NCBI RefSeq assembly: GCF_001982615.1
Contig: NZ_MLCO01000054.1
Span: 1 to 64,000 of the forward strand
DNA: 64,000 nucleotides
Origin: Teichococcus deserti
GTDB taxonomy: Bacteria; Pseudomonadota; Alphaproteobacteria; Acetobacterales; Acetobacteraceae
Direction: 5' to 3'
Part shown: piece after piece, positions 1-19,882 of the stretch
Layout: every line of letters starts with the position of its first letter
How positions within the stretch are numbered: the first letter of the stretch is position 1
Position numbers and translations under genes: made by a program
Notes under the pieces: generated by a model
What the model saw: the letters and a program-made list of their open reading frames with translations, nothing else
Database searches by the model: none
Told to the model about the DNA's origin: nothing

Positions 1-76
1 CAGCACATGCCATTGCGGATCGGTCGAGATCGGCGCCCGGGCGCCGATCTCGACCGATCCGCAATGGCATGTGCTG
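1..76. repeat. Perfect 76-bp terminal palindrome (probable fold-back artefact)
   Basis: Bases 1-38 are the exact reverse complement of bases 39-76, with no loop and no mismatch. The right arm reads as normal coding sequence of the following esterase gene (in-frame residues such as DPQWHVLHDID), so the left arm looks like an inverted copy of real sequence. Perfect loopless inverted repeats at the very end of a sequence are typical of assembly or amplification fold-back. A genuine cruciform or terminator inside a conserved coding region is much less likely. Confidence 0.85.
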
Positions 77-622
77 CACGACATCGACAAGCGCGACGCC
101 TATATCCTCGGCGGCTGCGTCGAGGATCTGTGGCTGGCGGTCTCGGCGCTGGAGGACATCGTCCCCGAGGTGGCGGGGCATGTCGGCTATACCGGGGTCA
201 GCTTCGGCGGCGGCATCGGCGCCCTGGCCATCCCCTGGGACGCGCGCATTCGCCGCGGCCATCTGGAGGTGCCGAGCTTCGGCAACCATCCGCTGCGGCT
301 GACCCTGCCCTCGATCGGCAGCGGCGCCGCGGTGCAGGCCTATTGGCGCCACCATGCCGAGGTGGTGGAGACCCTGGCCTGGTACGACGCCGCCACCGCC
401 GCGCGCTTCATCGCCATCCCGATGCTGGTCGCAGCGGCGCTGTTCGATCCGGTGGTGGCGCCGCCGGGGCAGTTCGCCATCGCCAATGCCCTGCCGGACC
501 GGGGCACGGGCGGCTGTCAGTCACTCTTCACACTGCCGGCCGGGCATTTCGACTATCCCGGGCGCGAGCGGCAGGAAGGCGCGCTGCGCCAGGCCGTGGG
601 AGATTTCTTCGCCGCGCTATGA
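39..622 (+). CDS. Acetylxylan esterase / cephalosporin-C deacetylase family, 5'-truncated
   Basis: This is the C-terminal part of an alpha/beta-hydrolase of the AXE1 carbohydrate esterase family, which removes acetyl groups from acetylated sugars or related esters. The nucleophile elbow GVSFGG carries the catalytic Ser, followed by the conserved GIGALAIPWD stretch. A later FDPVVAP segment would hold the acid and AGHFDYPG the catalytic His. The N-terminal part of the fold is missing. The frame stays open to base 2, but bases 1-38 are the inverted arm of the terminal palindrome, so the true coding sequence probably enters around base 39. Its stop overlaps the start of the next esterase by 4 bp (ATGA), so the two are probably translated together. 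The family call is good; the substrate is unknown. Confidence 0.8.
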
Positions 623-1347
623 ACCGCGAATACCACCGCTGGCACAGCCCGCGCCTCGGCCGCGACATGGAGCTGCTGGTCTTCGGCCATGCCGGCGCCA
701 AGGTCCTGGTCTTCCCGACGCGCGACGGCCGCTTCTGGGAATACGAGACGATCGGCCTGGTCGGTAGCCTGGCGCCGAAGCTGGCCGCGGGGCAGCTGCA
801 GCTGTTCTGCGTCGACGGGCTCTATGCCGAATCCCTGGGCAACCCGCATTGCCCGCCGGCCGCCCGGCTGCGGCGCCAGGCGCAGTTCGAGGACTATCTG
901 CTGCACGAGGTCATGCCGCTGCTGGCGGCGCGCAACCCGCATCCCTGCACCATCGCGCATGGCTGCAGCCTGGGCGCCTGGCAGGCGGTGAACATCGCCT
1001 TCCGCCACCCGCATCTCTTCGCCAAGGTCGCCGCCTTCTCCGGCCGCTACGACCTGACCCTGGCGGTCGAGCATTTCTCCGACCTGTTCGACGGGCATTA
1101 CGACGACGCGGTCTATTTCAACACGCCGTCGCATTTCCTGCCCGGCCTCGGCTGCGCCTGGCGGCTCGGCCATCTGCAGCGGATGGAGGTGGTGCTGGCG
1201 GTGGGCGAGGCCGACCCCTTCCTCGGCAACAACCGGCATCTGGGCCGGCTGCTGGCGGAGAAGGCCATCCCGCATGCCCTGCATGTCTGGTCGGGCCGGG
1301 CGCATCAGGGCCGCGCCTGGCGGCAGATGGCGCCGCTCTACCTCTGA
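619..1347 (+). CDS. Esterase family protein (alpha/beta-hydrolase)
   Basis: A 242-residue alpha/beta-hydrolase resembling the putative esterase family that includes esterase D and S-formylglutathione hydrolase relatives. Visible features are an N-terminal strand with VLVFPTRDGRF, a nucleophile elbow GCSLGAW (Gly-x-Ser-x-Gly) around residue 118, a conserved FSGRYDL segment and a terminal GRAHQGRAW holding the likely catalytic His. No signal peptide is visible, so it is probably cytoplasmic. Its ATG overlaps the stop of the acetylxylan-esterase-like gene by 4 bp, which fixes the start and suggests a two-gene operon of hydrolases. Substrate cannot be read from sequence. Confidence 0.8.
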   Translation: MNREYHRWHSPRLGRDMELLVFGHAGAKVLVFPTRDGRFWEYETIGLVGSLAPKLAAGQLQLFCVDGLYAESLGNPHCPPAARLRRQAQFEDYLLHEVMPLLAARNPHPCTIAHGCSLGAWQAVNIAFRHPHLFAKVAAFSGRYDLTLAVEHFSDLFDGHYDDAVYFNTPSHFLPGLGCAWRLGHLQRMEVVLAVGEADPFLGNNRHLGRLLAEKAIPHALHVWSGRAHQGRAWRQMAPLYL

Positions 1348-1351
1348 ACCG

Positions 1352-1648
1352 TCAAAGGCCCAGGCTGAGCTGCGCCACGCTGGCCGCGGGCGGCGGCGGG
1401 GCATGGCGATCGGCCTCGCAGAGCATCAGGTCGCCGAACATCGGGTCGAGCTCGGCCAGGATGCAATCCACCGCCTCGCTGACCTGCTGCCGCGGCAGCG
1501 ACGGGCAGAGGGCGCGCAGATAGCCGCGCCCCTCGCTGCGGGCGTCGCGGATCGTGGAGCCGGCGCGCAGCGCCTGGTTGATGACAGACCTCACCCGGAC
1601 GGCAGCGACCGGGTCGATCAGCGTGGTGCGAATGAGCGCGTGTTCCAT
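1352..1648 (-). CDS. Small hypothetical protein (98 aa)
   Basis: I do not recognise this 98-residue protein. It is probably real: codon use has strong third-position GC, and it reads as a soluble alpha-helical protein (VRSVINQALRAG, VSEAVDCILAELDP) with a proline-rich tail. It ends 4 bp from the convergent esterase stop. The ATG sits inside an inverted repeat, TGTTCC-N3-GGAACA (1641-1655), and no Shine-Dalgarno is evident, so the message may be leaderless or the start hidden in structure. The upstream stretch is unusually AT-rich for this window, consistent with a promoter. Confidence 0.55.
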   Translation of the reverse strand: MEHALIRTTLIDPVAAVRVRSVINQALRAGSTIRDARSEGRGYLRALCPSLPRQQVSEAVDCILAELDPMFGDLMLCEADRHAPPPPAASVAQLSLGL

Positions 1649-1655
1649 GGGAACA
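1641..1655. promoter_or_regulatory. Inverted repeat over the start codon of the 98-aa gene
   Basis: TGTTCC and GGAACA flank a 3-base centre that contains the start codon of the minus-strand 98-residue gene. It could be an operator of a dimeric repressor or a small RNA hairpin over the start. Only the symmetry is seen; the function is inference. Confidence 0.3.
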
Positions 1656-1716
1656 AATTAAGAACATCTGAACCGCGCCTGTCCAGCACAGAATCGCAGT
1701 CGGCCAAGGCTCCGCG

Positions 1717-2205
1717 TCAGCGCCGCAGATGGCTGGTGGGCAGGGCGGTGGTGTATTTCACCTGGTCGAGGGCGAAGCTGGAGCGGATGTTGGAGACCAC
1801 CGGGATCTGCGTCAGGCAGTCCAGCATCAGCTCCTGGTAGCGCAGCAGGTCCTCGACCACGACGCGCAGCATGAAGTCGGCCTCGCCGGTCATCAGGTAG
1901 CATTCCATGACTTCCGGACGCCGCGCGATGGCATCGGTGAAAACCTTCAGCGAGGCCTTGTCCTGCTGCTTCAGCGTGACATGGACGAAGACATTGACCG
2001 CGAGGCCCAGCGCCAGCGGATCGACCAGGGCGACGGCGCCGCGGAGGACGCCGCGGGCGCGCAGCTCGGCCACCCGCCGCCAGCAGGGCGAGGCCGACAT
2101 GCCGACGCGCTCGGCGAGCTCGGCATTGCTGATCTCGCTGTTGGTCTGCAGCAGGTCGAGGATGCGCAGGCTGGCTTCGTCCAGTACCTGGCGGGGGTCG
2201 GGCAT
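1717..2205 (-). CDS. Lrp/AsnC family transcriptional regulator
   Basis: A 162-residue leucine-responsive-type regulator of the usual family length. The N-terminal winged helix-turn-helix lies at about residues 9-60 (ILDLLQTNSEISNAELAERV, then the recognition helix SPCWRRVAEL). The C-terminal RAM (amino-acid-binding) domain covers about residues 70-150, with the typical VMECYLMTGEADF and ELMLDCLTQIPVV segments. It is transcribed divergently from the DMT transporter at 2341, so an amino acid or similar metabolite exporter is the likely target, as with the LysE/RhtA-type pairs controlled by Lrp relatives. The effector is not predictable. Confidence 0.92.
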   Translation of the reverse strand: MPDPRQVLDEASLRILDLLQTNSEISNAELAERVGMSASPCWRRVAELRARGVLRGAVALVDPLALGLAVNVFVHVTLKQQDKASLKVFTDAIARRPEVMECYLMTGEADFMLRVVVEDLLRYQELMLDCLTQIPVVSNIRSSFALDQVKYTTALPTSHLRR

Positions 2206-2340
2206 GTTTCTCCGGTCCTAATGCCGTTCCCGGTCAATCTAACCTGAATTCGCCGCAAACAAAGCTGAGACAGGTCAGATTTCCCGGCGCGACCAGGGGA
2301 TGATTTCCCCCGAGACCGATGCCCGGGAATGCCGCCGACC

Positions 2341-3279
2341 ATGAGCCATGCGCAGAACACGCCGATCGCCTCCCTGGCGCCGATCCAGCTGCCGGCGGGC
2401 ACCGGCACGCGGCTCTGGCTGCTGGCCATGGTGCTGCTCTGGGGACTGAGCTGGCCGGCGACGGCCCTGGCGCTGCAATCGGTGCCGCCGCTCTGGCTGG
2501 CCGCCATCCGCTTCGGCAGCGCGGCGGTCTGCCTGTTCGTCTTCGTCGGCCTGCGGGGCCAGCTGCGCCTGCCGCCGCGCGCCGACTGGCCGATCGTCGC
2601 CAGCATCGGGCTGCTGCAGATGATGGCTTTCACCGGCATGGGCATGATCGCCATGACCCGCACCGACACCAGCCATGCCGTGCTGCTGGCCTATACCACG
2701 CCGCTGTGGAGCCTGCTGATGGGCTGGGCGATGTTCCGCCAGGCACCGAGCCGCGCCCAGGCGCTGGCACTGGCGGTCGGCCTGTCCGGCGTCGCGCTGA
2801 TCGTCTCGCCGCTGGAGATGGACTGGCAGCGGCCGGGCGTGGTCACCGGCGCCGCGCTGCTGCTGGGCGGCGCGATCTGCTGGTCGGCGGTGATCCTGCA
2901 TATCCGCCGCCACCGCTGGACCACGCCGCCGCTGGCCCTCGCCCCCTGGCAGATGCTGCTGGCCACCATCCCGCTGACGGCGATCGCCTGCGCGGTGGAG
3001 GGCTCGCCGGCCGCGATCCCGATGACGCCGCATCTGCTGCAGCTGCTGGCCTTCATCGGGCCGGTCGCGACCTCGGCCTGCTTCGTCATCTCGGCCGAGC
3101 ATGGCCGCCGCATCAGCGCCTTCGCCATGTCGAACTTCACCCTCGGTGTGCCGCTGATCGGCGTGCTAGCCTCGGTTTTCTTCCTGGGCAACCGGCTGTC
3201 GGCGGTGTTCCTGGCCGGGCTGACCCTGGTCTTCGCCGGCATGGTGCTGGCCGGGATGGCGGCGCGGCGCCGCGCCTAG
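2341..3279 (+). CDS. DMT family transporter (EamA, 10-TM exporter)
   Basis: An inner-membrane drug/metabolite transporter of about 312 residues with ten predicted helices and two EamA repeats. The first repeat starts with WLLAMVLLWGLSW and contains the family-typical SHAVLLAYTTPLW. The second begins about residue 170 after PLEMDWQRPG. Such proteins usually export amino acids or other metabolites. It is divergent from an Lrp/AsnC regulator, which may control it. An in-frame ATG 12 bp upstream (2329) is an alternative start; neither has a strong Shine-Dalgarno. Its stop codon shares the sequence CTAG with the stop of the convergent VWA gene, so the genes overlap tail to tail by 4 bp. Confidence 0.9.
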   Translation: MSHAQNTPIASLAPIQLPAGTGTRLWLLAMVLLWGLSWPATALALQSVPPLWLAAIRFGSAAVCLFVFVGLRGQLRLPPRADWPIVASIGLLQMMAFTGMGMIAMTRTDTSHAVLLAYTTPLWSLLMGWAMFRQAPSRAQALALAVGLSGVALIVSPLEMDWQRPGVVTGAALLLGGAICWSAVILHIRRHRWTTPPLALAPWQMLLATIPLTAIACAVEGSPAAIPMTPHLLQLLAFIGPVATSACFVISAEHGRRISAFAMSNFTLGVPLIGVLASVFFLGNRLSAVFLAGLTLVFAGMVLAGMAARRRA

Positions 3280-4442
3280 CTGTCCGACCGGATCAGCTTG
3301 ATGTCGCGGTCGGCGGCCCAGGCATGGACGTCCTCGCGCCGCAGCGCGGTCGCCATCAGCTCCGGGAACTGGTCCGGGGTGCAGGCGAAGACCGCGATGC
3401 CCAGCGCCGCCACCCGTGCCGACAGCCTCGAGTCATAGGACGGCCGGCCCTGGTCGGACAGCGCCAGCAGCACGACCACGTTCACCCCCGCCAGCACCAG
3501 CCCGGCCAGGCGGTCGACCAGGGCGTCGGCGTCGCCGCCCTCGTAGAGATCGGTGATCAGCACCAGATGCGCCTTGGACGGCCGCTCGATGCGGTCCTCG
3601 CAATAGGCGACGGCGGCGTTGATGTCGGTGCCGCCGCCCAGCTGCACGCCGAACAGCACCTCGACCGGATCGGCCAGCTCCTCGGTCAGGTCGAGGATCG
3701 CCGTGTCGAAGCAGACCAGCTTGGTCGCCACCACCGGCAGCGAGGCCATGACGGCGGCGAAGATCGAGGCATAGACCACCGAGCTCGCCATCGACCCCGA
3801 CTGGTCGACACAGAGAACAACCTCGTCCAGATCGGTGATGCGGCGCTGCTGCCGCATGAAGCCGATCAGCCGCTCGGGGACGATGGTGCGGTGCTCGGGC
3901 TGATAGTGGGAGAGGTTGGCGCGGATGGTGCGCGGCCAGTCGATGTCGGAAAAGCGCGGCCGGTTCGTGCGGCGGGCGCGGTCCAGCGCGCCGCGCACCG
4001 CCTCGGCCGTGCGGCGCTGCAGGCGTTCCATCAGCGCCTCCACCACCTTGCCGATGACCAGCCGCGCGGTCTCCTTGGTCTTCTCCGGCATGACGCCGCG
4101 CAGCGCCACCAGGTCGGCGACCAGGTTCACATCGGCCTCGACGGTGGCCAGGAATTCCGGCTGCAGCAGCATCTGCCGCAGCCCCTTGCGCTCGAAGGCG
4201 TCCTTCTGGATCACCTGCACCACCGGCGTCGGGAAGAAGTCGCGGATGTCGCCCAGCCACTTCGCCACCCGCGGCGCCGAGCCGCCCAGCCCGCCACGGC
4301 CCTTGCGGTCGCTGCCGTCGCCATAGAGCGCCGACAGGGCCAGCGCCATGCGGCGGTCGCTGTCGGAGAGCGGCGCGGCGCCGTCCTCGCTCTCGGTGCC
4401 CAGCGCCAGGGTCCAGCGGCGGTCGCGTTCCTGCTCGCTCAT
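3276..4442 (-). CDS. VWA domain protein, MoxR-associated
   Basis: A 388-residue protein, last gene of a five-gene operon. The C-terminal half is a von Willebrand factor A domain with a complete metal-ion-dependent adhesion site: DQSGS (Asp213, Ser215, Ser217), Thr272 in GGGTDI and Asp298 in ITDLYEGG. The N-terminal half is helical and of unknown fold, like the CoxE-type VWA proteins that work with MoxR ATPases. No signal peptide or membrane helix is seen, so it is cytosolic. The start overlaps the stop of the DUF5682 gene by 4 bp. By analogy with CoxD/CoxE and RavA/ViaA, it should act as the metal-dependent binding partner of the MoxR ATPase encoded two genes upstream. The actual target is unknown. 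Confidence 0.88.
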   Translation of the reverse strand: MSEQERDRRWTLALGTESEDGAAPLSDSDRRMALALSALYGDGSDRKGRGGLGGSAPRVAKWLGDIRDFFPTPVVQVIQKDAFERKGLRQMLLQPEFLATVEADVNLVADLVALRGVMPEKTKETARLVIGKVVEALMERLQRRTAEAVRGALDRARRTNRPRFSDIDWPRTIRANLSHYQPEHRTIVPERLIGFMRQQRRITDLDEVVLCVDQSGSMASSVVYASIFAAVMASLPVVATKLVCFDTAILDLTEELADPVEVLFGVQLGGGTDINAAVAYCEDRIERPSKAHLVLITDLYEGGDADALVDRLAGLVLAGVNVVVLLALSDQGRPSYDSRLSARVAALGIAVFACTPDQFPELMATALRREDVHAWAADRDIKLIRSDS

Positions 4443-6658
4443 CGCGGCGCTCCTGCTTCGATCAGCGCGCGGATCCGCGCCTCATGCGCCGGCCAGAGCG
4501 CCGCCGCCCCCGGCAGCAGCCGGTAGCCGCGCGCGCTGGCCTCGGCCTGGCCGCGCGCCGCATCCATCAGCCGCCGCCGCTCCTGGCGGTCGAGGTCGGA
4601 GAAGACCCGGCGGAACAGCGGCAGGTTGGCGACGAAGCTGTCTTCCTCCAGGCCCAGCATCCAGCCATCGACGGCCTGGCGCAGCGCGGCGTCATGGATC
4701 AGCCGCTGCCCGGCCCCGGCCAGGAAGCCTTCGAAGAAGCCAGCGGCCTGGGCCACGGCGATGCCGGGCGACAGCCTTCTCTGCAGCAGCGCGGCGGCGG
4801 CCTCGGCGCCGATCTGCTCGCCCTCGTAGAGCAGCCGGCCGGCGGCGCCGGCGACCAGCTGCGTCGCCTGCTCGTCCTCCAGCATTGTTGCCAGTGCTCC
4901 ATGCCAGGCGGCGACGGTCTCGGCGTCGAGCTGGGCCAGCTGGATGGCGGCCTCGGCGGCCAGGATGGCGTCGCGCAATGTCGAGGAGGCTTCGGCATCG
5001 AGGTTGCGCGCGGCATAGGGCAGGGCCAGCGCCGCCTGCACGGCGATGCGCGGCATCAGCGCCGCCAGATGCTCGGCGGTGCCGGCGCGCGCCTCGCCAT
5101 AGCGCAGGATCTCGGCCATCGGCGGCAGGGCTGCCAGCAGCGCCAGCGCGTCGCTGGTCAGCGCCGCGCGGGTCTCCAGCAGCGCCGTGCCGATCTCGGC
5201 CGCCTGCGGCAGCACGGCGATCATGGCGCTGCGCAGCAGCCCGGCCAGCGGGCCCAGCGCCGGCTCGCCGCGCATCGCCTCGGCCAGCCGGGCGCCGGCG
5301 GCATCCGCGATGGTCGCGCCGTGGACGAGGTTCTCGACCAAACGCACAGAAAATTCCGGCTGCCAGGCCAGCACCCAGTTCTCGCGGAAGGTGCCGCGGC
5401 TGCGCCCGGCATCGGCCAGCCGCCCCCAGGGCACGTCGAGCGCCGCCAGCCGGTGCAGCAGGGTCGAGCGCGCCAGGCCGCTGTCGCTGCGCAGGTCCAG
5501 CGTCAGCGGCTTCTCCAGCGCCTCGGGCTTCAGCCGCACCGCCTTCTGCTGCCGCTGCAGGTCTTCCAGCAGCGGCGCCAGCGGCGTGCCCTCGGGGATG
5601 GCGCCGACATCGGCGCCGATCAGCAGCTCGGCGGCGATGTCGTGCCAGACGGCAGATTCGCCGTGGCAGAGGCAGGCGATGGCGGCGTCGCGCAGCTCCT
5701 CGAAGCCGGGATGCGGCCGCTCGCGCATGGCGGCCAGCGCCACGCCCAGCCGCTGCGCCTCGATCACCGAGGCGGTGGAGACGAAATGCCCGCGCTCCCG
5801 CATCACCCGGGCGATGCGCGCCAGCCAGGTCGAGGCGCGGTCGGCCGCATCATGGCTGTCCCAGAGATGCGCGCACCAGCCGGGGGCGATGACGCCGGCG
5901 CCATAGCCGCTGCCGCGCGCCAGCCGCGGCGCCGTCCAGGGCGCCCAGGTCAACTTCGCCTTGGCCTTGGGCCGGCCCTTCAGCAGCGCGCGGTCCTCGG
6001 CATGGCTGCGCTTCTCGCGCAGGCCGGGAACGTGCCAGGCGCCGCAGACCACGGCGACGGGGCCGTCGCTTTCCTTGGCGGCGCGGGCGATCTCGAGGCG
6101 CATATGCGCCTCCCGCGCCGCCTCGCGCGGGGAGGGTGGGCCGGCCTCGGCGCGCAGCGCGGCCATGGCCTCGGCGACGGCGGCGAAGACCGGCAGGCCG
6201 GAGGCGCTTTCCTCGATGACGTCGGACCACCAGGATTCGCCATCGGCATAGCCGGCGGCGGCGGCCAGGATGCCGATCGGGTCGCGGCTGACCTCGTCTT
6301 CTTCCAGCGCCTCCTCGGGCGCCCCGGCCAGCCGCTCGCCGAGGCGGTCGGTCGCCGGCAGGTCGATGAAGCGCAGCACAGCATTGTTGGCGACAGCCCA
6401 GCGCGCTGCCTGGAACTCGGGGGAATATTCGGCAAAGGGAAAAAAACTGGCCTGGGCGGGGTCTTCCTCGGCATAGGCCAGCAGCGCCACCGGCGTGCGC
6501 AGCCCGGGATCGGCCAGCATCGGCAGCAGGTCGGAGGCGTCGGCCGGGCCTTCGATCAGCACGGCGGCCGGCCGCGCCGCCGCCAGCGCCTCCACCAGCC
6601 GCCGCGCCGAGCCCGGCCCGTGGTGGCGGATGCCGTAGAACAGAAGATCGGCCGGCAT
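4439..6658 (-). CDS. DUF5682 family protein (TraB/ChaN-like motifs)
   Basis: A 739-residue protein of the DUF5682 family, which is regularly found with MoxR and VWA genes. The N-terminus carries GIRHHGPGS at residues 9-17 followed by IEGPAD (Glu36), and a second GAWHVPGL motif lies at 206-213. The pair of Gly-x-x-His motifs with an intervening acidic residue resembles the TraB/ChaN/EreA superfamily; this relation is my inference. The remaining ~500 residues are alanine- and leucine-rich helices that look like a repeat-type scaffold. It starts 4 bp after the MoxR stop and overlaps the VWA gene start by 4 bp, so it is certainly co-translated with them. Biochemical role unknown. Confidence 0.85.
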   Translation of the reverse strand: MPADLLFYGIRHHGPGSARRLVEALAAARPAAVLIEGPADASDLLPMLADPGLRTPVALLAYAEEDPAQASFFPFAEYSPEFQAARWAVANNAVLRFIDLPATDRLGERLAGAPEEALEEDEVSRDPIGILAAAAGYADGESWWSDVIEESASGLPVFAAVAEAMAALRAEAGPPSPREAAREAHMRLEIARAAKESDGPVAVVCGAWHVPGLREKRSHAEDRALLKGRPKAKAKLTWAPWTAPRLARGSGYGAGVIAPGWCAHLWDSHDAADRASTWLARIARVMRERGHFVSTASVIEAQRLGVALAAMRERPHPGFEELRDAAIACLCHGESAVWHDIAAELLIGADVGAIPEGTPLAPLLEDLQRQQKAVRLKPEALEKPLTLDLRSDSGLARSTLLHRLAALDVPWGRLADAGRSRGTFRENWVLAWQPEFSVRLVENLVHGATIADAAGARLAEAMRGEPALGPLAGLLRSAMIAVLPQAAEIGTALLETRAALTSDALALLAALPPMAEILRYGEARAGTAEHLAALMPRIAVQAALALPYAARNLDAEASSTLRDAILAAEAAIQLAQLDAETVAAWHGALATMLEDEQATQLVAGAAGRLLYEGEQIGAEAAAALLQRRLSPGIAVAQAAGFFEGFLAGAGQRLIHDAALRQAVDGWMLGLEEDSFVANLPLFRRVFSDLDRQERRRLMDAARGQAEASARGYRLLPGAAALWPAHEARIRALIEAGAPR

Positions 6659-6662
6659 GGCG

Positions 6663-7742
6663 TCAGATCTGGTCGGTCAGCGCGGCGTAATAGCCCTCGA
6701 AGCCGCGGCGCTTCTTCAGCACCGTCTCCAGGTATTCGCCGAGCACGGCCTTGTCCTGGACAGGATCCTTGACGACGGCGCCGATCATGTTGCTGGCCAG
6801 CGTCTCCGGCGTCAGGCGGCCGTCGTTGAAGAAGGTCGCCTGGCTGATGCCGCCGACCATGACGCCGATGGCCTCCGCCGTCGACAGCCCGCCGGAGGGC
6901 GACTTCAGCGCCACCTTGCCGTCCTCGGTGGAGCCCGAGCGCAGCTCGCGGAAGATGGCGACGACGCGCGCCACCTCCTCGGCCACGTTCTTCGGCGCCG
7001 GCAGGTCGAGGCTCTGCGCCATCTCGCCCACGCGCTTGACGATGATGGCGACCTCCTCCTCGGCGCTGTCGGGCAGCGGCAGGACGACGACGTTGAAGCG
7101 CCGCTTCAGCGCCGAGGACAGCTCGTTGACGCCCTTGTCGCGGTTGTTGGCGGTCGCGATGATGTTGAAGCCGCGCTGCGCATAGACGGCGCTGTTGAGC
7201 TCCGGGATCGGCATCATCTTCTCGGACAGCACGGTGATCAGCGTGTCCTGCACGTCGCTGCCCATGCGGGTCAGCTCCTCCAGCCGGCAGAGCTTGCCGC
7301 CTTCCATGGCGCGCATGAGCGGGGTGGGCACCAGCGCCTCGCGGCTCGGGCCCCTGGCCAGCAGCTGGGCGTAGTTCCAGCCGTAGCGCACCTGGTTCTC
7401 GTCGGTGCCGGCGGTGCACTGGATCACCAGGGTGGAATCGCCGGTGATGGCGGCGGCCAGGTGCTCCGAGACCCAGGACTTGGCGGTGCCGGGCACGCCC
7501 AGCAGCAGCAGCGCGCGGTCGGTGGCCAGCGTCGCCACCGCGGTCTCGATCAGCCGCCGGTCGCCGACGTATTTCTCCGAGATGGCGGTGCCGTCGGCGG
7601 CGGCGCCGCCCATCAGATAGGTCACCACCGCGCGGGGCGACAGCGCCCAGCCGGGCGGGCGGCGATCGCCGTCGCCCGCGGCCAGGGCGGCGAGCTCGCC
7701 GGCATAGATCGCCTCGGCCGGCCTGCGCAGCGTCTCGCTCAT
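6663..7742 (-). CDS. MoxR-type AAA+ ATPase
   Basis: A 359-residue AAA+ ATPase of the MoxR clade. Walker A is GVPGTAKS at residues 82-89. The Walker B region is LCRLEEL at 151-157, where Glu-Glu stands in place of the usual Asp-Glu. Sensor 1 is ATANN at 196-200 and the arginine finger region LKRRF lies at 212-216. MoxR ATPases act as chaperone-like remodelling motors with VWA partners. The next genes in the operon encode DUF5682 and a VWA protein, and the preceding ones DUF5691-like and SWIM proteins, all within 8 bp of each other or overlapping. No membrane segments. The start ATG overlaps the upstream stop by 4 bp. Confidence 0.92.
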   Translation of the reverse strand: MSETLRRPAEAIYAGELAALAAGDGDRRPPGWALSPRAVVTYLMGGAAADGTAISEKYVGDRRLIETAVATLATDRALLLLGVPGTAKSWVSEHLAAAITGDSTLVIQCTAGTDENQVRYGWNYAQLLARGPSREALVPTPLMRAMEGGKLCRLEELTRMGSDVQDTLITVLSEKMMPIPELNSAVYAQRGFNIIATANNRDKGVNELSSALKRRFNVVVLPLPDSAEEEVAIIVKRVGEMAQSLDLPAPKNVAEEVARVVAIFRELRSGSTEDGKVALKSPSGGLSTAEAIGVMVGGISQATFFNDGRLTPETLASNMIGAVVKDPVQDKAVLGEYLETVLKKRRGFEGYYAALTDQI

Positions 7743-9145
7743 CGGGTGGTTCCTCCATTGTCCAAAGCGGCGTTCAACCGCAGCATGTCCAGGCGCGGGT
7801 CGGCGGCGACCAGGCCGACGGCGGCGATGCGCTCCAGCGCGCGGCGCGCCTCCGCCTGCGTCGTCAGCAGGCCGAGCGCCAGCAGCTCCCCGGCGGGATC
7901 GCCGGTGGTGGCGGCGCTGTCCTGCAGCCGCTGCAGCAGGGCGATGCCGGCGGCGGTGCGCAGCGCATCGTCCAGCGCGCCTTCCGCCCCGGCGATGATC
8001 AGCGCCTGGGCATAGGTGCCGCCCTGCGCGTTCAGCAGCCGCGTCGCCAGGCTGCGGCGCTGCGCCGGCGCCAGCCGCGGCAGCAGCGAGTGCAGGCCAT
8101 AGGGATCGAGGCTGGCGCCGGTCATCAGCGCCTCGGCGACGGCGACGACAGCGGCATCCGGGCTGGAGCGCGCCGCCATGCCGGCCAGCGCCCGGTCCAG
8201 CCCGTGATCAGCGCCCCAAGGCCAGCCGGCAATCAGTTTTTCCGCCGTCAGCTCCAGCGAGGCCGCGAAGACGGGGAAAGGCACCGACTGCATCAGGCTG
8301 AAGCGGCGGTTGCGCTGCGCCGGGGTCTTCGGCGGCTGCGGCACCACGGTGCGCGTCCGCCGCAGGAAGCCTTTCGTCTGCACCTCGAAGAAGGCAGCGA
8401 GCTCGGCCGCGTCGCTCTCGGCCGTGGCGCCATGGCCGAGCCGCCCCAGCAGCGCCGCGGCGGTGGCCTGCACCCGCGGCGCGCGGTCATTGGCGAAGCC
8501 CTCGAGCAGCGGCCGGTCGACCTCGGTCAGGCCCTGGCGGATCATCGACAGCAGCCGCACCCGCTCATCCGCCGTCTCGGCGCCGATCTTCTGGCCGAGC
8601 AGCAGCGCCGCCGCATCCGGGTCCTGCCGGCGCAGGCTGGCGAAGGCGACGCGGCGCGCGGCAGGGGCCATCTCCTCCCAGCTTTCGGCGCTCAGCGCCT
8701 GCGGCGCGCCTTCGGCGCTGTCGGCGGAGGCGGCCCAGTCCTGCCAGGGGGTATAGACATCGGGCACCTCGTCATTCGGCCCCGGCAGCCAGTCGCCGGG
8801 ATGCAAGGTCCAGCCGCGGGCATCGAGGAAATCGAGCAGGTCGCGGCGGCGGCTTGGCTCGCGGACGGCCTGCAGCAGGCGGCGGGCGCGCGGCCGCAGC
8901 GCCTCCGGCACCGGCGGCTTCGCCAGGCGCGGCAGCGGGGCCAGGGCGTGGATCTCGCCCGCCGGCTCGGCCAGGGTCAGGCTGCCCAGGAAATGGCCGG
9001 ACAGCGCCAGCAGCCGCAGCTCGGCCTCCGCCGCCTCCTCGCCCAGGGCGTCGCGCCAGGCAGCGGGGGCGGCAGGGGCCGCGCCGCCGCCCATGGTCCA
9101 GCGCGTCAGCACCGGGCCCAAGGCTTCGAGCAGGCGCTCAGTCAT
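7739..9145 (-). CDS. DUF5691-like protein of the MoxR-VWA operon
   Basis: A 468-residue protein that by position and composition matches the DUF5691 family usually found between SWIM and MoxR genes; the family call is from memory and moderately sure. It is largely alpha-helical, with an N-terminal LALSGHFLGSLTL segment, a central WTLHPGDWLPG and VYTPWQDWA stretch, then HEAT-like helices (VQATAAALLGRLG). A basic block FLRRTRTVVPQPPK lies about residue 255. No catalytic motif is recognisable. It overlaps the SWIM gene by 8 bp upstream and the MoxR gene by 4 bp downstream, so it is a stoichiometric partner candidate of the ATPase. Confidence 0.75.
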   Translation of the reverse strand: MTERLLEALGPVLTRWTMGGGAAPAAPAAWRDALGEEAAEAELRLLALSGHFLGSLTLAEPAGEIHALAPLPRLAKPPVPEALRPRARRLLQAVREPSRRRDLLDFLDARGWTLHPGDWLPGPNDEVPDVYTPWQDWAASADSAEGAPQALSAESWEEMAPAARRVAFASLRRQDPDAAALLLGQKIGAETADERVRLLSMIRQGLTEVDRPLLEGFANDRAPRVQATAAALLGRLGHGATAESDAAELAAFFEVQTKGFLRRTRTVVPQPPKTPAQRNRRFSLMQSVPFPVFAASLELTAEKLIAGWPWGADHGLDRALAGMAARSSPDAAVVAVAEALMTGASLDPYGLHSLLPRLAPAQRRSLATRLLNAQGGTYAQALIIAGAEGALDDALRTAAGIALLQRLQDSAATTGDPAGELLALGLLTTQAEARRALERIAAVGLVAADPRLDMLRLNAALDNGGTTR

Positions 9146-10523
9146 GGGCGATGCGCCCCCAGGGGCTTTGCGCCGCCAGCAGCTGCAGCCGGTTGCCCGA
9201 CCACAGCGCCGCGGCCCGCGTCAGCACGGTGCCGGTCAGCAGCCCGGTGGCCTCGCCGGCCAGCGGCAGCGCGGCGCTGCCGTCATCGGCCTGCCACCAG
9301 GGCGCGCCGGCACGGTCGAAGCCGATGCGCCCCGCCGGCAGCAGCAGCGGATGCGCGGCCGCCCAGGGCTCCTGCAGCAGCGGCGCGGTCAGGGCGTCTT
9401 CCAGCGAGGGCGCGGGCTGGGGCCAGTCTTGATCGGCCGCCTCCCGCGTCGCTCCCCGCCGCAGCAGCACGGCACGGAGCGGCAGCGGCGCCGGATAGAA
9501 CAAAAATTCGGCGTCGAACTGCTCGCCCGGGGTGAAGACGGCGGCGCGCCTGCCGGCGCTGGCAGGGAAGAAATCCAGCAGCATGGCGAAGCGCGGCCCC
9601 GTGGCGCCCAGATTGAGCAGCCAGGTGGTCTGCGACACCAGCCCGTCGCGCCGGGTGCGCACCTGCTCAGCCAGCACCTCCCAGGTGGCAGCGACGCGCG
9701 GCGCGGCAGGGTCGTCCAGCAGCGCCTCCCGCGTCTCGGCCGTGGCGACGGCGCGGCGCAGCGTGGCCTCCTCCGGCGCGGCGCGATAGGCGCGGGCCAG
9801 CAGCACCAGCCGGCCGAGCTCCACCGTCGCGCCGCGCAGCCGGTCGCCGGCGGGCAGGGCCAGCAGCCGTCCCGGCAGCTCGTCGACATGGCCGGCCAGC
9901 GCCGCGGCCTTGCCGTCGACCAGCCGCGCGCCGATGCGGCGGCAGCGCGCCGTGGCATCCTCGACGAAGCCGGCGAGCCCGAGGCGCAGCTGGTCCCCGA
10001 CCCATTGCTCCAGCGCCTCCAGCGCCTCGAGGATGGCGCGCTGGGTGTCCTCGCCGCGTTTCTTCGCGGCAGCCTCGCGGCGGGCGGCGGCCTTGGGGTC
10101 GTCCGCGGCTTCCGGTTCTTCGACGCGGGCGGCGGAAAGATCCTTGCCGGCGGCCGGCGCCGCGGCGGGCTGCGGCGCGCTGCCGGCGGCCGGGCGGCGG
10201 CGGCCGAGCCAGTCGCTGACCCAGTCCGGCGTGTCGCCAGCGGGGAAGGGGGCGATGGCCTCGGCCTTCAGCCAGAGCAGCGCCAGCCCGTGCTTGCAGG
10301 GGAATTTCCGGGATGGGCAGGTGCATTTGCTGCCCAGGTCGCGCAGATCGGCGGCGACGCGATAGGGGTTGGCGCCCGAGCCGGCGCAGTCGCCCCAGAT
10401 CAGCGCCGCGTCATGGCTGGCGCCCAGCCCCGACCATTTGCCCGGCCTGGCGAGCCCGGCGGCGGCCTTGAGCGACGCCTGATCGGTGGCAAGCCGTTCC
10501 ACCGCCTTCACGTCGATCGCCAC
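9138..10523 (-). CDS. SWIM zinc-finger family protein
   Basis: A 461-residue protein, first gene of the five-gene MoxR-VWA operon. A SWIM zinc finger (Cys-x-Cys-x(n)-Cys-x-His) is visible as CTCPSRKFPCKHGLALL at about residues 69-85; these fingers bind nucleic acid or protein. An alanine/proline-rich linker follows, then a helical domain of about 300 residues with no recognised fold. The finger suggests that the operon recognises nucleic acid or a protein partner, but this is inference. The stop overlaps the next start by 8 bp. The 97-bp gap upstream separates it from the DyP-like gene on the same strand. Confidence 0.88.
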   Translation of the reverse strand: MAIDVKAVERLATDQASLKAAAGLARPGKWSGLGASHDAALIWGDCAGSGANPYRVAADLRDLGSKCTCPSRKFPCKHGLALLWLKAEAIAPFPAGDTPDWVSDWLGRRRPAAGSAPQPAAAPAAGKDLSAARVEEPEAADDPKAAARREAAAKKRGEDTQRAILEALEALEQWVGDQLRLGLAGFVEDATARCRRIGARLVDGKAAALAGHVDELPGRLLALPAGDRLRGATVELGRLVLLARAYRAAPEEATLRRAVATAETREALLDDPAAPRVAATWEVLAEQVRTRRDGLVSQTTWLLNLGATGPRFAMLLDFFPASAGRRAAVFTPGEQFDAEFLFYPAPLPLRAVLLRRGATREAADQDWPQPAPSLEDALTAPLLQEPWAAAHPLLLPAGRIGFDRAGAPWWQADDGSAALPLAGEATGLLTGTVLTRAAALWSGNRLQLLAAQSPWGRIAHD

Positions 10524-10620
10524 GCAGCCTCCCCGGGTCTCTGTCCGCGGACTAGGATAGGAAGCGGCGCGCGCGGCTCAACCGGGGCTGCGATAAACTG
10601 TGGATCAGCTCAAGGATCCG

Positions 10621-13524
10621 TCAGGGGTCCTGCGCCAGCCAGCGCAGGCTGCGGCGGCCGGGCATGAAGAAATAGCCGCCGCCGCGGAGGCGGACGAAAT
10701 CGGCGAAGCGGCGGATGGTCAGCGGGCCCTCCGGCGTCGGCACGGTCAGCCGCGCGCTGCGGCCGCCGCGCGACAGCACGGCATCCACCTCGTTCTCCAG
10801 CCCGTGGAACTGCGGCGCCATGGCCCAGCTCTGCTGGATGAACTCGAACTGCCGCTCGATGTCGAGGTTCAGGCACATGAAGTAGAGGCCCGGGTTGCGC
10901 GCCGCCGGATCGCCGCTGCCGGCGGCCTCGAAGCCGCGGCCGCGGCGCAGGATGCGGTGGCGGTTGGTGATCGCCAGCTGCTCGCGCGAGCCGGGGGCGA
11001 AGGAATCGCGCGGGTTGGTGCGGCGGATATGCGCGCCGAAGGGGCAGCGCTGGCCGGTCGGATCCTCGGCGCCGAGCAGGAAGTCGTTGTCCATCGGGAC
11101 CCGTTTCTTCTTGTCCTTCTCGGCCTGCGGCGCGTCCGGCCAGCCCTGGCCCGGCTCGGTGGGGTGGCGGATCAGCGAGGTGCCGTCCTGCCAGCGGCCG
11201 ACCATCTTGGCGCCGATCCAGCAGGCGCGCTGGCCCGGCGTCAGCCCGGGCGGCACGCCGGCGCGGCCGTCCAGCTCCCCGGCGGCGCGGGTCATGAAAT
11301 CCTCGAAGCCGGCGACATCCTGCTCCAGCTGGCGCACCACCAGGAAGCTGCCGTTGCGGCCGAAATCGCGGTCGCCGCCGGCGCCGCCCGGGGCGAAGCT
11401 CGGCAGCAGCAGCCCGTCGGAATGGCGCTGGTCGTGCAGCGCCAGCAGCGCGGCCGGGTCGGCCGCGGCGGGAAGGCGCGGCGACAGGGCGCGGCCGCCG
11501 CGGTTGTCGGGATAGCCGAACAGGAACTCGCCGGGCTCGACGGCATGGATCGCGTCCGCGTCGCGCATCCAGCGGCGGGTGCCGCGCACGACCGGCTGCG
11601 AGACGCCGTCGACGAAGCCGAAGGGCTCGCGCATCGGTCCGCCATCCGGCGCGGTGGGCGGCGCCATGGTCAGGCGGTGCAGCAGCCGGCCGCCCAGCGC
11701 CAGCGCCTCGGCGATGGCGGCCTCGAGCGCCGCCGCATCCTCGGCATAGAGGTTGAGCACGGCATCCGGCCGCGGATCGGCGCCCCAGAGCCAGTCGGCC
11801 GGCCCGTCATCGCCGGTGTCGGACAGGATGCGGGCGCGGGTCGGATGCGCCATGCCCTGGCGGAAGGCCAGCGGGAAATCCTGCAGTGTCGCCGGCGGCA
11901 GGCCGAGCTTCCGCAGGCCCTCATGGGTGAGGCCGAGCTGGTGCACGGTGCCGCGCGGCAGCTCCTCGCCATAGGTGATGCGGGGTTCCAGCGCGCGCAG
12001 CCAGGCGCGGGCGGCGGCGATACCCTCGGGCAGCGACAGCACCAGGCTGGCGCCGGCCGGCTGGCGCTTCAGCCCGCCATAGAAGATCGACTGCACCTCG
12101 CCGGTCTCGATGCTGCCGGCGGCGCGCGCGCTGGAGCCGAGCAGGCTGAACCAGGCGGCGGCCTCGTCCTCGGTGGCGGCGGTCAGCAGCCCGTGGCGGA
12201 TCGCGGCATTGGCGCGGATGCGCGCGGTGGTCAGGCGCGGATAGGCCGAATACCAGAAGCGGGTCGGGCGCTGCTGGCGGCGCGCCCAGCGCTTGAAGCG
12301 GTCGGCATCGGTCGCGCCCTTCTGGAAGAGGTTCTCGGTCGCCGGGAAGCCGGCGGTGTTGCTCCAGACCCCGGTCAGGCCGTTCGAGGCCTTGGTGATG
12401 AAATCCTCCAGGTAGCTTTCCCAGCTGCCGCCGAAATTGGAGAAGAACAGCAGCCGGTCGGTGCCGGGCAGCAGCACCCAGCGGGCGAAATGGATGGTGC
12501 CGATCTCGCCGAGGAAGCCCGGGCGGAAATGCTTTGCCGCCATCAGCCCGATGACGCGGAAGGCCAGCCGCAGGGTCAGCCGGCGGAACCAGCCCGCCTG
12601 CATCACCGAGATGCCGGCCAGGTGGTTCTGCAGCGCGCGGTTCTCATGCGCCGCCACCTGCTCCAGGACGGCGGGGTCGGGCAGGCTGTCATCGGCGGTG
12701 TTGGCGCGCTCCATCCGGCGCAGCAGGGCGTAGAGCCAGGCCAGCAGCCCGCCCAGCGCCAGCAGCGCGACGACCGCCGCGGCGACCAGGGTGGCGAAGC
12801 CGAGCGCCGCGCCGCCGGCGCGCGCCGCCAGCCAGCCGGCCAGCAGCACGAGGGCGCCGAGCGGCAGCAGCACCGGCCAGAGGAAGCTCCAGGCGGCGGC
12901 CAGGATGACGCTGGCCAGCCCGTCCTTCATCCCCGAGGCGGCCGGCAGCGGCGCCACCGGCTCGACCTGGCGCATGGCGTGCAGCCCGGCCGGCAGGTCG
13001 TCGCCGAAGACGCGGTCGCGCAGCGCGCGCAGCCGGGCGAGCGGCGTCGGCCCCGGCATGTCGCCGGCATCCATGATGTCGCGCAGCCTTCGGGTCAGCG
13101 CATGCTCGTCGCGGATGCGGGCGACCGACATGCCGGGCGTGCCGCAGAAATCCAGCCCCGGCACGTCGAACAGTCCGGCGCCGCTGCGGATGCGGTGCCG
13201 GCGCAGCAGGTCGTGCAGCTCCTCCCGCGGCAGCCCGGCGGCGTCGAGGATCAGCGCCATCTCGGCGCCCAGGCGCTCGGTCAGGATCCGGGTCGCCTGC
13301 TGCTCGCTGTCGTCGACCGAGATCTCGACGACCAGATGGGCCGGCCTGCCAGGATCGCCGGGCACGGTGGTGATGCTGAGGAAATGCAGCCCCTGGCGGC
13401 GCAGCACGTCGCGCAGCGGGCCGCGGTCGAGCAGGCGCTGGCCCAGCACCTCCAGCCGGTCGTCGACGGCGGCCAGATGCGCGGCGTCGAAGGGCAGGCC
13501 GTAGGTCAGCATGAACTGCCGCAT
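10621..13524 (-). CDS. Membrane-anchored DyP-type peroxidase-like protein, 967 aa
   Basis: An unusually large protein whose C-terminal ~450 residues carry DyP-type haem peroxidase motifs: GFVDGVSQP (the GxxDG motif with the distal Asp) around residue 634 and CPFGAHIRRTNPRD with the likely proximal haem His around 824. Further family segments are NRHRILRRGR and LDIERQFEFIQQSW. The N-terminal 200 residues are soluble and unrecognised. Two hydrophobic segments at about 205-227 and 238-265 look membrane-spanning. A middle domain holds FLFFSNFGGSWESYLEDF-like sequence. DyP enzymes use peroxide to oxidise bulky substrates and normally have 300-500 residues, so this is a fusion. No TAT signal is visible, so the topology is unclear. 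Confidence 0.8.
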   Translation of the reverse strand: MRQFMLTYGLPFDAAHLAAVDDRLEVLGQRLLDRGPLRDVLRRQGLHFLSITTVPGDPGRPAHLVVEISVDDSEQQATRILTERLGAEMALILDAAGLPREELHDLLRRHRIRSGAGLFDVPGLDFCGTPGMSVARIRDEHALTRRLRDIMDAGDMPGPTPLARLRALRDRVFGDDLPAGLHAMRQVEPVAPLPAASGMKDGLASVILAAAWSFLWPVLLPLGALVLLAGWLAARAGGAALGFATLVAAAVVALLALGGLLAWLYALLRRMERANTADDSLPDPAVLEQVAAHENRALQNHLAGISVMQAGWFRRLTLRLAFRVIGLMAAKHFRPGFLGEIGTIHFARWVLLPGTDRLLFFSNFGGSWESYLEDFITKASNGLTGVWSNTAGFPATENLFQKGATDADRFKRWARRQQRPTRFWYSAYPRLTTARIRANAAIRHGLLTAATEDEAAAWFSLLGSSARAAGSIETGEVQSIFYGGLKRQPAGASLVLSLPEGIAAARAWLRALEPRITYGEELPRGTVHQLGLTHEGLRKLGLPPATLQDFPLAFRQGMAHPTRARILSDTGDDGPADWLWGADPRPDAVLNLYAEDAAALEAAIAEALALGGRLLHRLTMAPPTAPDGGPMREPFGFVDGVSQPVVRGTRRWMRDADAIHAVEPGEFLFGYPDNRGGRALSPRLPAAADPAALLALHDQRHSDGLLLPSFAPGGAGGDRDFGRNGSFLVVRQLEQDVAGFEDFMTRAAGELDGRAGVPPGLTPGQRACWIGAKMVGRWQDGTSLIRHPTEPGQGWPDAPQAEKDKKKRVPMDNDFLLGAEDPTGQRCPFGAHIRRTNPRDSFAPGSREQLAITNRHRILRRGRGFEAAGSGDPAARNPGLYFMCLNLDIERQFEFIQQSWAMAPQFHGLENEVDAVLSRGGRSARLTVPTPEGPLTIRRFADFVRLRGGGYFFMPGRRSLRWLAQDP

Positions 13525-13621
13525 GGGTGGCGCTCCCGTCCCCGAGGGAAGCGCAGGCTAGGGCAGGGTCGGTGGGGCGGCGAAATGAAAAGCCGGTCAT
13601 CGCCCGCCCGGGCCGGCCTGG

Positions 13622-14569: not shown

Positions 14570-15255
14570 GCGCGGCTCTCCGCCTCGAACTGGTCGCGGG
14601 TGATGCGGGTGAAGCGGACGCTGTCGCCGACATCGAAGAGGAAGGGCCGCGCGCTGTCGCCGCCATCCAGGATGCGGGTCGGCGAGCGGCCGATGTTCCA
14701 CCAGCCATTCGGCATGATCATGGTGGTGACCAGGCATTGCGGCCCGGCGATGGTGACGCTGCCGGCCGGCGTGCCGCGCACCGGCGAGGTCTTGCGCGGC
14801 TGCCGGATGGCCTCCGGCACCCCGGCCAGATAGGCATAGCCGGGGGCGAAGCCGTACATATAGACGCGGTAGTCGCCGGCCAGATGGGCGGCGATCACCG
14901 CCTCGGTGTCCAGCCCGGTGGCCTCGGCGACGCGCGCCAGGTCGGGGGCGAGCTCGGCCTCGTAGCAGACGCGCACCTCGCGCAGCCGGCCGGGCTTGGG
15001 CACCCTGGCAGGGCCGCCCAGCAGGCGCCGCAGCGCCGCCTCGACGCTGGCGTGGTCGGTCTGCATCGGATCGAAGCGGACCAGGATGTTCACATAGGCC
15101 GGCACCGCCTCGAGGAAGCCGGGGACGCTCTCGGGCGAGAGGCCGGCATCGAGGCGCAGCACCTGGTCATGCACGTCGCGGTCGATGCGGTCGCCGAACT
15201 CGACCAGCAGCGCGTGATCGGCGACCGGCCGGAACACCGGATAGGCAGGGCTCAT
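14566..15255 (-). CDS. pxpB: 5-oxoprolinase subunit B (KipI / allophanate hydrolase subunit 1 family)
   Basis: A 229-residue PxpB protein with the carboxyltransferase C/D fold. Recognisable segments are ALLVEFGDRID near the N-terminus, the EVRVCYEAELAPDLARVA strand-helix, and the family signature GFAPGYAYLAGVP at about residues 135-147, followed by PRKTSPVRGTPAGSV. It pairs with PxpC to phosphorylate and activate the lactam for PxpA. It overlaps pxpA by 4 bp upstream and pxpC by 4 bp downstream, so translational coupling is expected. Cytoplasmic. Confidence 0.92.
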   Translation of the reverse strand: MSPAYPVFRPVADHALLVEFGDRIDRDVHDQVLRLDAGLSPESVPGFLEAVPAYVNILVRFDPMQTDHASVEAALRRLLGGPARVPKPGRLREVRVCYEAELAPDLARVAEATGLDTEAVIAAHLAGDYRVYMYGFAPGYAYLAGVPEAIRQPRKTSPVRGTPAGSVTIAGPQCLVTTMIMPNGWWNIGRSPTRILDGGDSARPFLFDVGDSVRFTRITRDQFEAESRA

Positions 15256-16022: not shown

Positions 16023-16064
16023 GGGGCGGGTCCTCGTCGGTTCGGGGGCAAGTCTATGACGGTG

Positions 16065-17751: not shown

Positions 17752-17782
17752 CGGCCCGGGCGGCGCGGTGGTTGGATCGGGT

Positions 17783-18309: not shown

Positions 18310-18319
18310 CGCGCCTCTC

Positions 18320-19762: not shown

Positions 19763-19882
19763 CGTCCGGCAGGCGTCGCTGCGGCGACCTGTGGTTTGCT
19801 GCCGGATATTACAGCAGAAATCATGACAGGCGCCAAACGATCGCCTAGCATGGCCCGCGCAACGGCGAAGGACAAGAGCCCG

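Follow-up and report, generated by a model that had tools for sequence, protein, structure and literature searches.

A YehL-type MoxR/VWA operon of Teichococcus deserti that includes a DUF5691 gene and, in its DUF5682 protein, a probable TIKI-fold hydrolase domain

The operon and its Escherichia coli relative

Escherichia coli K-12 has two MoxR ATPases, YehL among them, and seven subfamilies of MoxR have been named, one of them after YehL (PMC3893208). In K-12 the genes yehL (MoxR), yehM (DUF5682), yehP (VWA) and yehQ (SWIM) lie consecutively in a tight cluster. Here we describe a related operon in a 64,000-nucleotide stretch of Teichococcus deserti DNA (contig NZ_MLCO01000054.1, positions 1 to 64,000; hereafter the window), which proved to be a form of the YehL-type MoxR/VWA operon that includes DUF5691, and whose DUF5682 protein probably carries a hydrolase domain. 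As the first-pass annotation had described, five minus-strand open reading frames (ORFs) run from 10523 to 3276 in the order SWIM, DUF5691, MoxR, DUF5682, VWA, and the successive junctions are an overlap of 8 bp, an overlap of 4 bp, a gap of 4 bp and an overlap of 4 bp.

9138..10523, minus strand: SWIM zinc-finger protein, first gene (461 aa, GTG start; Pfam 27.9 bits, cut-off 19.6)
7739..9145, minus strand: DUF5691 protein (468 aa; PF18944, 71 bits, cut-off 27)
6663..7742, minus strand: MoxR AAA+ ATPase, YehL type (359 aa; AAA_5 130 bits, cut-off 22)
4439..6658, minus strand: DUF5682 / YehM-like protein (739 aa; Pfam 688 bits, cut-off 26)
3276..4442, minus strand: VWA (CoxE-like) protein (388 aa; VWA_CoxE 181 bits, cut-off 26.4)

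The window MoxR shares 43% identity with YehL over 356 columns (E 3e-82). Against RavA, the second MoxR of E. coli, similarity is barely detectable (101 columns, E 0.006); YehL and RavA are the proteins on which this subfamily placement is based. The DUF5682 protein shares 29% identity with YehM (E 2e-36) and the VWA protein 35% with YehP (E 3e-76). Pairwise BLASTP detects no resemblance between the SWIM protein and YehQ (E 5.8), though both carry a SWIM finger. The E. coli cluster thus resembles that of the window in grouping MoxR, DUF5682, VWA and SWIM genes, but its SWIM gene comes last, no DUF5691 was found in it, and a DUF4132 gene, yehI, lies upstream with yehK in between. The gene set is not new, contrary to the first suggestion of a novel system: its core matches yehL-yehM-yehP, of an already named subfamily (PMC3893208). 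That the function of the five-part set is not established does stand, as no reported function was found. Among the papers listed in searches of open-licence literature we found no functional study of yehL, yehM, yehP or yehQ and no paper combining MoxR with SWIM or TIKI terms, and DUF5682 and DUF5691 are named in none of its papers.

Two operon types can be distinguished. Type A, that of the window, has the order SWIM-DUF5691-MoxR-DUF5682-VWA, and type B (E. coli, Iodobacter, Sinorhizobium) comprises DUF4132, MoxR, DUF5682, VWA and SWIM, where DUF4132 either precedes MoxR or separates DUF5682 from VWA; in Sinorhizobium a WGR domain is fused to DUF4132. The E. coli operon is near-core, yehLMPQ being matched in 5301 of 5426 E. 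coli genomes and at least 80% covered in 5162. A type A cluster is annotated in the order SWIM-DUF5691-AAA-DUF5682-VWA on a plasmid of Rhizobium sp. K102, where the annotation assigns no function. Plasmids of Methylosinus and Deinococcus also carry the five genes in the window order, the Deinococcus one with a further small gene separating AAA from DUF5682. In the Methylosinus plasmid (M. trichosporium pOB3b3, locus L004, 10172-11397) the VWA match is split over three overlapping frames and unannotated, and the gene is apparently broken.

The expected motifs are present in the SWIM, MoxR and VWA proteins. The SWIM motif CxC-x6-CxH occupies residues 67-78 of the first protein (window 10290-10325); KCxCPSRKFPCKH occurs in all six aligned SWIM proteins, that of the window included, and the SWIM pattern was found in 70 of 73 alignment rows. 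Residues 82-89 of MoxR (window 7476-7499) form the Walker A, GVPGTAKS. In the VWA protein the metal-ion-dependent adhesion site (MIDAS) is complete, consisting of DQSGS at residues 213-217 (window 3792-3806) together with T272 and D298, and DxSxS is found in all 84 VWA alignment rows. Among solved sequences, the nearest to the window MoxR are midasin (E 2e-14) and then NorQ (E 9e-6), both of which work with VWA domains (PMC9976466). For DUF5682, VWA, SWIM and DUF5691, sequence searches found no solved relative with an E value of 0.001 or lower.

Co-occurrence and movement of the five genes

Related loci were fetched by the peptide pattern [GP][IV]RHH[GS]P[GA][SC]A, and the best-scoring 80 of 587 DUF5682 loci, hence those near the type of the window, were analysed; they come from species-level genomes, many of them metagenome-assembled. 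All five genes were present in 67 of these 80 loci, which span many phyla. Of the 59 loci with room, that is, with at least 5.5 kb upstream and at least 1.5 kb downstream of DUF5682, 56 have the full set. The first-pass annotation had named rare co-occurrence of the genes as an outcome that would refute it; they strongly co-occur. MoxR stands beside DUF5682 in 76 of the 80 loci, and where it does not (L039, L066, L087, L092) it was found elsewhere in three of the four genomes. VWA is missing beside DUF5682 in L039, L087 and L092, and lies elsewhere in the genome in all three.

A sample of 299 Pseudomonadota genomes gave a similar picture. DUF5682 scored above the cut-off in 13 of them, with six type A and eight type B loci (one genome has both), and MoxR adjoins DUF5682 in all 14 loci, window included. 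DUF4132 was detected in seven of the eight type B loci; the eighth runs off its contig. DUF5691 was above the cut-off in six genomes, those with type A loci; all six are among the 13 with DUF5682 and have the two genes in a single operon (hypergeometric P 1.8e-9, the window's own genome being included). One more DUF5691 match fell under the cut-off, as did a second DUF5682 match of 19 bits in genome G259.

MoxR, DUF5682 and VWA make up a core that hardly varies, and SWIM and DUF5691 behave as a second pair. The division into a core (motor, VWA and DUF5682) and a recognition arm is drawn because gene fusions, divergent arms and locus counts all split that way. SWIM and DUF5691 are fused in three loci (L007, L053, L058), and they are divergent from MoxR-DUF5682-VWA in two Streptomycetaceae loci (L074, L084). 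DUF5682 and VWA are fused in a single long ORF on a Streptomyces atratus plasmid (L008, 7941-11708), with DUF5682 in two segments. Judged by BLASTP, the arm appears exchangeable, the window SWIM protein being without similarity to YehQ while the core matches. Apart from the five genes, only DUF4132 was found repeatedly, in E. coli-type operons and in three Bacteroidota loci, and no recurrent extra partner was seen in the flanks by Pfam (96 flank genes, 25 of 102 families shown). Homology between DUF5691 and DUF4132, DUF5691 and YehQ, or SWIM and YehQ was tried by hhalign and none was convincing. The fused ORF of L008 adjoins DUF4132 and AAA ATPase genes, and in Variovorax sp. OK212 (L048, 1518-13608) about 4.3 kb separate MoxR from DUF5682 and DUF5691 was not detected.

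Similarity to other orders coincides with the operon. A blastn search of window 1-20000 against the Sphingomonas sanguinis locus covers only 3282-10525 (77.3% over 7299 columns); the match ends within 6 bp of both operon ends and thus holds the five genes and nothing more. The Bradyrhizobium match spans 3288-10525 in two pieces. DUF5682 was absent from all 16 other genomes of the same genus (one of them only 71% complete) and from all 57 other relatives searched, not all of which are complete. On a quick tree, the window DUF5682 groups with that of Sphingomonas sanguinis (SH-aLRT 96) and then with Bradyrhizobium (100), apart from the copy of Asaia, another member of the Acetobacteraceae. The tree requires 15 phylum changes (minimum 9, shuffled mean 31.3), which is by itself no proof of transfer. 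From these comparisons the five genes seem to move as one cassette, and they constitute a real, widely conserved, apparently mobile unit.

3276..10525, minus strand: extent of the apparently transferable five-gene cassette, from blastn against the Sphingomonas and Bradyrhizobium loci
10528..10534, minus strand: Shine-Dalgarno-like GGGGAGG ahead of the GTG start of the first gene, read from the upstream sequence

The operon has a GC content of 0.739 against 0.737 for the window, so its composition is not anomalous. On one side the last 4 bp of the VWA gene are shared with a convergent EamA gene (2329-3279); on the other, 97 bp separate the SWIM gene from the end of an upstream gene resembling those of Dyp-type peroxidases. 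This neighbour (10621-13524, minus strand) encodes 967 aa, the C-terminal part being TIGR01413-like (73 bits, under the cut-off of 100.5). It has an 86% identical homologue in one congener (G011), weaker ones in three others and none in the remaining 12. In G011 the Dyp-like gene lies near the counterpart of a small ORF of the window (1352-1648) and the operon is absent between them; since the block lacking there also includes AsnC and EamA, loss in G011 is indistinguishable from gain in the window. Where the window has AsnC, EamA and the operon, the G011 locus (L017, 9802-10568) has ORFs that by eye look like insertion sequence (IS) transposases.

Several copies lie on plasmids or on DNA labelled as mobile. 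An Iodobacter fluviatilis plasmid (L005, 14071-17467) carries an E. coli-type operon that has a type I restriction-modification system close by and IS elements at the opposite end, and on Methylosinus pOB3b3 recombinase and VapC toxin-antitoxin genes lie upstream and IS66 genes downstream. MoxR-DUF5682-VWA is also carried by MT835988 (L010, 166-4876), a human-faecal scaffold labelled Bacteriophage sp., and PHROG families match DUF5682 and VWA. The scaffold and the PHROG matches represent either mislabelled bacterial DNA or copies in mobile elements.

The N-terminal domain of DUF5682

The whole DUF5682 protein was modelled with AlphaFold2 at a predicted local distance difference test score (pLDDT) of 89.4 and a predicted template modelling score (pTM) of 0.82, as an alpha/beta domain followed by a mostly helical region. 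Foldseek with this model returned weak, mostly helical-repeat matches, and the domain was therefore folded alone. The domain model has a parallel beta-sheet core flanked by helices, as in TIKI structures.

5891..6658, minus strand: TIKI-superfamily-fold domain, predicted, residues 1-256 (domain model pLDDT 90.2, pTM 0.89)
4553..5359, minus strand: helical solenoid-like C-terminal region, residues about 434-702 (secondary structure of the model; helical-repeat matches, which are unspecific)
6623-6625, minus strand: codon of candidate active-site H12, after strand 5-10
6551-6553, minus strand: codon of candidate active-site E36, in strand 32-38
6113-6115, minus strand: codon of candidate active-site R182 (the equivalence of the Arg is inferred, not aligned)
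6032-6034, minus strand: codon of candidate active-site H209, after strand 201-206

Previous studies describe TIKI enzymes as sharing a core, catalytic His/Glu residues (2His/2Glu) and a conserved basic residue, and name PMT, HopBA1, Bcr135 and ChaN among TIKI proteins (PMC6254334). In Foldseek with the domain alone, the top three rows are one chain of Tetrahymena complex IV (E 0.010-0.041), a complex that includes a TraB-family protein (PMC10060162), which the matched chain, Z, may be. When the matches were re-aligned by VIA-align, ranks 1-14 were all of TIKI type, with Z-scores of 5.5-10.4 and alignments running from residue 1 to about 216-256. The Tetrahymena chain scored 10.4 (177 aligned, root-mean-square deviation 4.6), ChaN (2g5g) 8.4 (166 aligned, 5.8), HopBA1 (5t09) 7.9 (141 aligned, 3.7), the BcR135 entries and EreC 6.4-6.7, PMT 6.1 and RRSP 5.5-6.0, entries 6a7h and 6a8j being assigned to RRSP from residue numbers and 2qgm presumably being an Ere-type protein; the first non-TIKI row was RosC at 5.1. 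With the whole protein, the families of the Tetrahymena chain, ChaN and HopBA1 scored 9.9, 8.0 and 6.6, respectively.

Profile comparison points the same way. In hhalign, the N-terminal domain scored 29.0 against ChaN, 23.9 against TraB and 20.6 against EreA, versus 11.7-18.8 for six unrelated families, and the local alignments place GIRH12 on the GTIH of TraB, E36 on a Glu of TraB and GAWH209 on the GSGH of ChaN. In a control with 200 column shuffles of residues 1-225 of alignment A2, the observed scores of 28.1 for ChaN and 22.5 for TraB were each beaten once, by a degenerate shuffle that scored 135-138 against all three families. The second characteristic of the domain is its invariant residues. 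H12, E36, E81, D99, R182, E183 and H209 are invariant in all 69 alignment rows and in all 13 sequences found by the Pfam profile, so that the four candidates H12, E36, R182 and H209 are unchanged in 82 sequences, drawn from both operon types. Alignment A2, with its 69 rows, comprises the window, 61 of the 80 loci and seven annotated loci; 19 loci were left out of alignments A2 and A3, some being partial or frame-shifted and others to limit size, and some of the 82 are near-copies (L124 and L003 are identical at the N terminus). Among the pattern-found loci the invariance of R11-H12-H13 is partly due to selection, because the search pattern includes those residues.

As the predicted fold best matches the TIKI type and the candidate catalytic residues sit where TIKI enzymes keep theirs, DUF5682 is predicted to be a hydrolase. 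We consider it probable, from the models and alignments, that its N-terminal 220 or so residues are a TIKI-fold hydrolase domain, within which peptidase, esterase or other activity cannot be told apart. The suggestion made at first sight of the sequence, that DUF5682 is a possible effector, gains support from this hydrolase-type fold and from the candidate active site.

Several points weigh against such an assignment. No Foldseek match of the domain reached E 0.001, the best being 0.010; VIA-align re-aligns only Foldseek's own best 1000 chains, and most of the TIKI Z-scores are below 8, a range where it warns of common arrangements. The hhalign scores against TIKI families are weak in themselves (probability 8% at best), the ChaN alignment spans residues 85-210 and the TraB alignment only 2-36, and EreA (observed 19.8) was beaten by 15 of the shuffles. 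Off-target scores come close, namely 21.9 for TraB against residues 240-440 and 24.0 for DUF5691 against residues 430-739, and therefore ChaN alone stands clear. The first glycine of the GIRH motif is Pro in five of the 13 profile-found sequences. The second TIKI Glu (of GE-x-H) is missing, the window having Ile at position 10. Finally, the fold need not mean an enzyme: PMT has it without the catalytic set (PMC6254334), and the structure title of ChaN refers to heme binding. The aligned TraB member likewise lacks the GE-x-H Glu, reading GTIH; DUF5682 is for this reason not placed in the RRSP/ChaN-like branch. A 2013 paper on the Tiki superfamily reportedly gives two GX2H motifs as its signature.

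Proposed mechanism, alternatives and known systems

In NorQ/NorD, a finger of the VWA protein enters the pore of a MoxR hexamer, the MIDAS face is presented to a partner, and ATP hydrolysis twists a linker (PMC9976466; PMC13036017). By analogy, the operon may encode a MoxR/VWA remodelling machine built around the TIKI-fold hydrolase DUF5682, a proposal to which we give an even chance of being right. MoxR would form a hexamer, the VWA protein would plug its pore, and the metal-bearing MIDAS face would grip a partner protein, which we suppose to be DUF5682 and not an external protein. If DUF5682 is held by the motor, it would follow that ATP turnover activates the hydrolase, whether by opening it, by loading a metal or by feeding it substrate. 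The SWIM/DUF5691 arm would pick when and on what the hydrolase acts, a task that in E. coli-type operons would fall to a dissimilar SWIM protein with DUF4132, sometimes with WGR. The substrate might be a protein, cleaved by peptide-bond or ester hydrolysis, which is a guess. Two points tell against the proposed machine: the contact between VWA and DUF5682 would rest on one fusion and on synteny, and the MoxR Walker B segment (KLCRLEEL) has Glu-Glu in place of Asp-Glu, as does that of E. coli YehL (RFEE).

An unlikely but not negligible alternative is that the MoxR/VWA pair is a chelatase or chaperone which, in the manner of NorQ/NorD with nitric oxide reductase, supplies DUF5682 with a metal or remodels it a single time; DUF5682 would then be a lone constitutive hydrolase or a metal carrier, and SWIM and DUF5691 would be assembly factors. 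MoxR/VWA pairs of other subfamilies are indeed tied to metalloenzymes (PMC3893208; PMC13036017), Tiki has been described as metal-dependent (PMC6254334), DUF5682 is a steady partner of the pair, and the VWA protein belongs to the CoxE family. However, nearly all loci with room have a large SWIM/DUF5691 or SWIM/DUF4132 arm, which metal insertion does not need, and the TIKI protease RRSP is metal-independent (PMC6254334).

The first-pass annotation had also noted that related MoxR-vWA sets were proposed as conflict systems. In an anti-phage system of this kind, SWIM/DUF5691 (or WGR/DUF4132) would sense invader nucleic acid or protein, MoxR/VWA would set the threshold and the DUF5682 hydrolase would harm cell or invader. 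The design logic resembles that of the MoxR-vWA ternary systems (PMC7159879), and the distribution is patchy and apparently transferred, with no copy in the 16 congeners, blastn similarity that stops at the operon ends and some phylum mixing on the DUF5682 tree (alone no proof of transfer). Plasmid copies beside restriction (L005) or toxin-antitoxin genes (L004) and the PHROG matches could be added. The patchy spread of the type A cassette is compatible with a conflict role and equally with a niche stress function. On the other hand, the best matches of the five proteins to PADLOC models (2023 library) were of 12.5-13.6 bits, for MoxR only. The flanks differ little from control genes, with seven PADLOC family hits in 96 flank genes against four in 96 control genes, a small sample in which one protein may give several hits, and the commonest of the 102 Pfam families in the flanks, Response_reg, occurs in three of the 96 genes. 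The flank genes were called by a home-made gene caller (that of L123 being trained together with another genome of its genus), and the controls were a random 96 of 187 genes from eight of the 12 flank-giving genomes. In addition, the candidate active site is invariant and yehLMPQ is near-core in E. coli, which makes it unlike a typical accessory defence locus. With no convincing PADLOC match, little flank enrichment and a near-core relative, the conflict reading is not supported and appears improbable.

Slightly less probable again is that DUF5682 is a binding scaffold, a dead TIKI fold, and that the true client of MoxR/VWA is an unlinked housekeeping complex which they remodel, as proposed for RavA/ViaA on Nuo. 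RavA and ViaA do interact with an unlinked complex (PMC3893208), some TIKI-fold proteins such as PMT are non-catalytic (PMC6254334), and the E. coli operon is near-core, its annotated neighbours suggesting no obvious client; but His, Glu and Arg residues that lie at strand ends and stay invariant through 82 sequences from the two operon types have the look of an active site.

Very improbable, finally, is a DNA-damage response in which WGR/SWIM parts bind damaged DNA or repair complexes while motor and hydrolase clear proteins: E. coli-type operons do have SWIM, with a WGR-DUF4132 fusion in Sinorhizobium, WGR/DUF4132 genes go up on DdrO depletion in Deinococcus and MolR is described as LexA-regulated (PMC8533742), but the window version is without WGR or DUF4132, and alpha-proteobacterial, gamma-proteobacterial or Gram-positive LexA boxes were found in none of 74 upstream regions (chance expectation 0.3-0.7 each). 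The same scan, which covered the upstream regions of loci other than the window with patterns of boxes that differ between phyla, gave no region with a box for SOS, CIRCE heat-shock or sigma-54 control, a weak test with less than one expected by chance for each.

The ATP-gated machine built around DUF5682, if it exists, would be of wider interest. That it represents a new class of ATP-gated hydrolase machines, with a MoxR/VWA ring, a TIKI-fold protease or esterase as output and interchangeable arms (SWIM+DUF5691 or SWIM+DUF4132/WGR), is a tentative idea that we think less likely than not. Were it true, bacteria would have an ATP-driven hydrolase whose architecture is not related to that of ClpP, Lon or FtsH, and which occurs in many phyla and in almost all E. 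coli; and if the motor gates the hydrolase, this would be a new kind of AAA+-controlled enzyme. What is new here is an enzymatic hypothesis for DUF5682/YehM with named candidate residues; a candidate catalytic partner makes the orphan yehLMPQ operon testable in a laboratory strain, and the hypothesis suggests why a MoxR/VWA pair is accompanied in different phyla by a SWIM finger and two DUF proteins.

Besides E. coli yehLMPQ, three known systems are to be compared with the window operon. NorQ/NorD (CGN subfamily) likewise consists of a MoxR and a VWA protein with a MIDAS, but we know of no DUF5682, SWIM or DUF5691 gene in the nor operon norCBQDEF. Unlike what is proposed here, NorQ/NorD serves nitric oxide reductase (PMC9976466; PMC13036017). 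The MoxR-vWA ternary conflict systems (VMAP, iSTAND and FtsH types; PMC7159879) likewise join MoxR and VWA to effector or sensor proteins, but no VMAP, STAND or FtsH component was found among the Pfam matches of the five window proteins, Pfam perhaps not covering all ternary-system domains, and the window MoxR scored 26.6 against the Pfam family bpMoxR, just below the cut-off of 27; the main text of that paper (eLife 2020) mentions neither YehL nor SWIM. With the TIKI superfamily DUF5682 shares the predicted fold and an H-E-R-H set near strand ends, and it differs from its members by a mostly helical extension of about 480 residues and by being tied to a MoxR/VWA pair.

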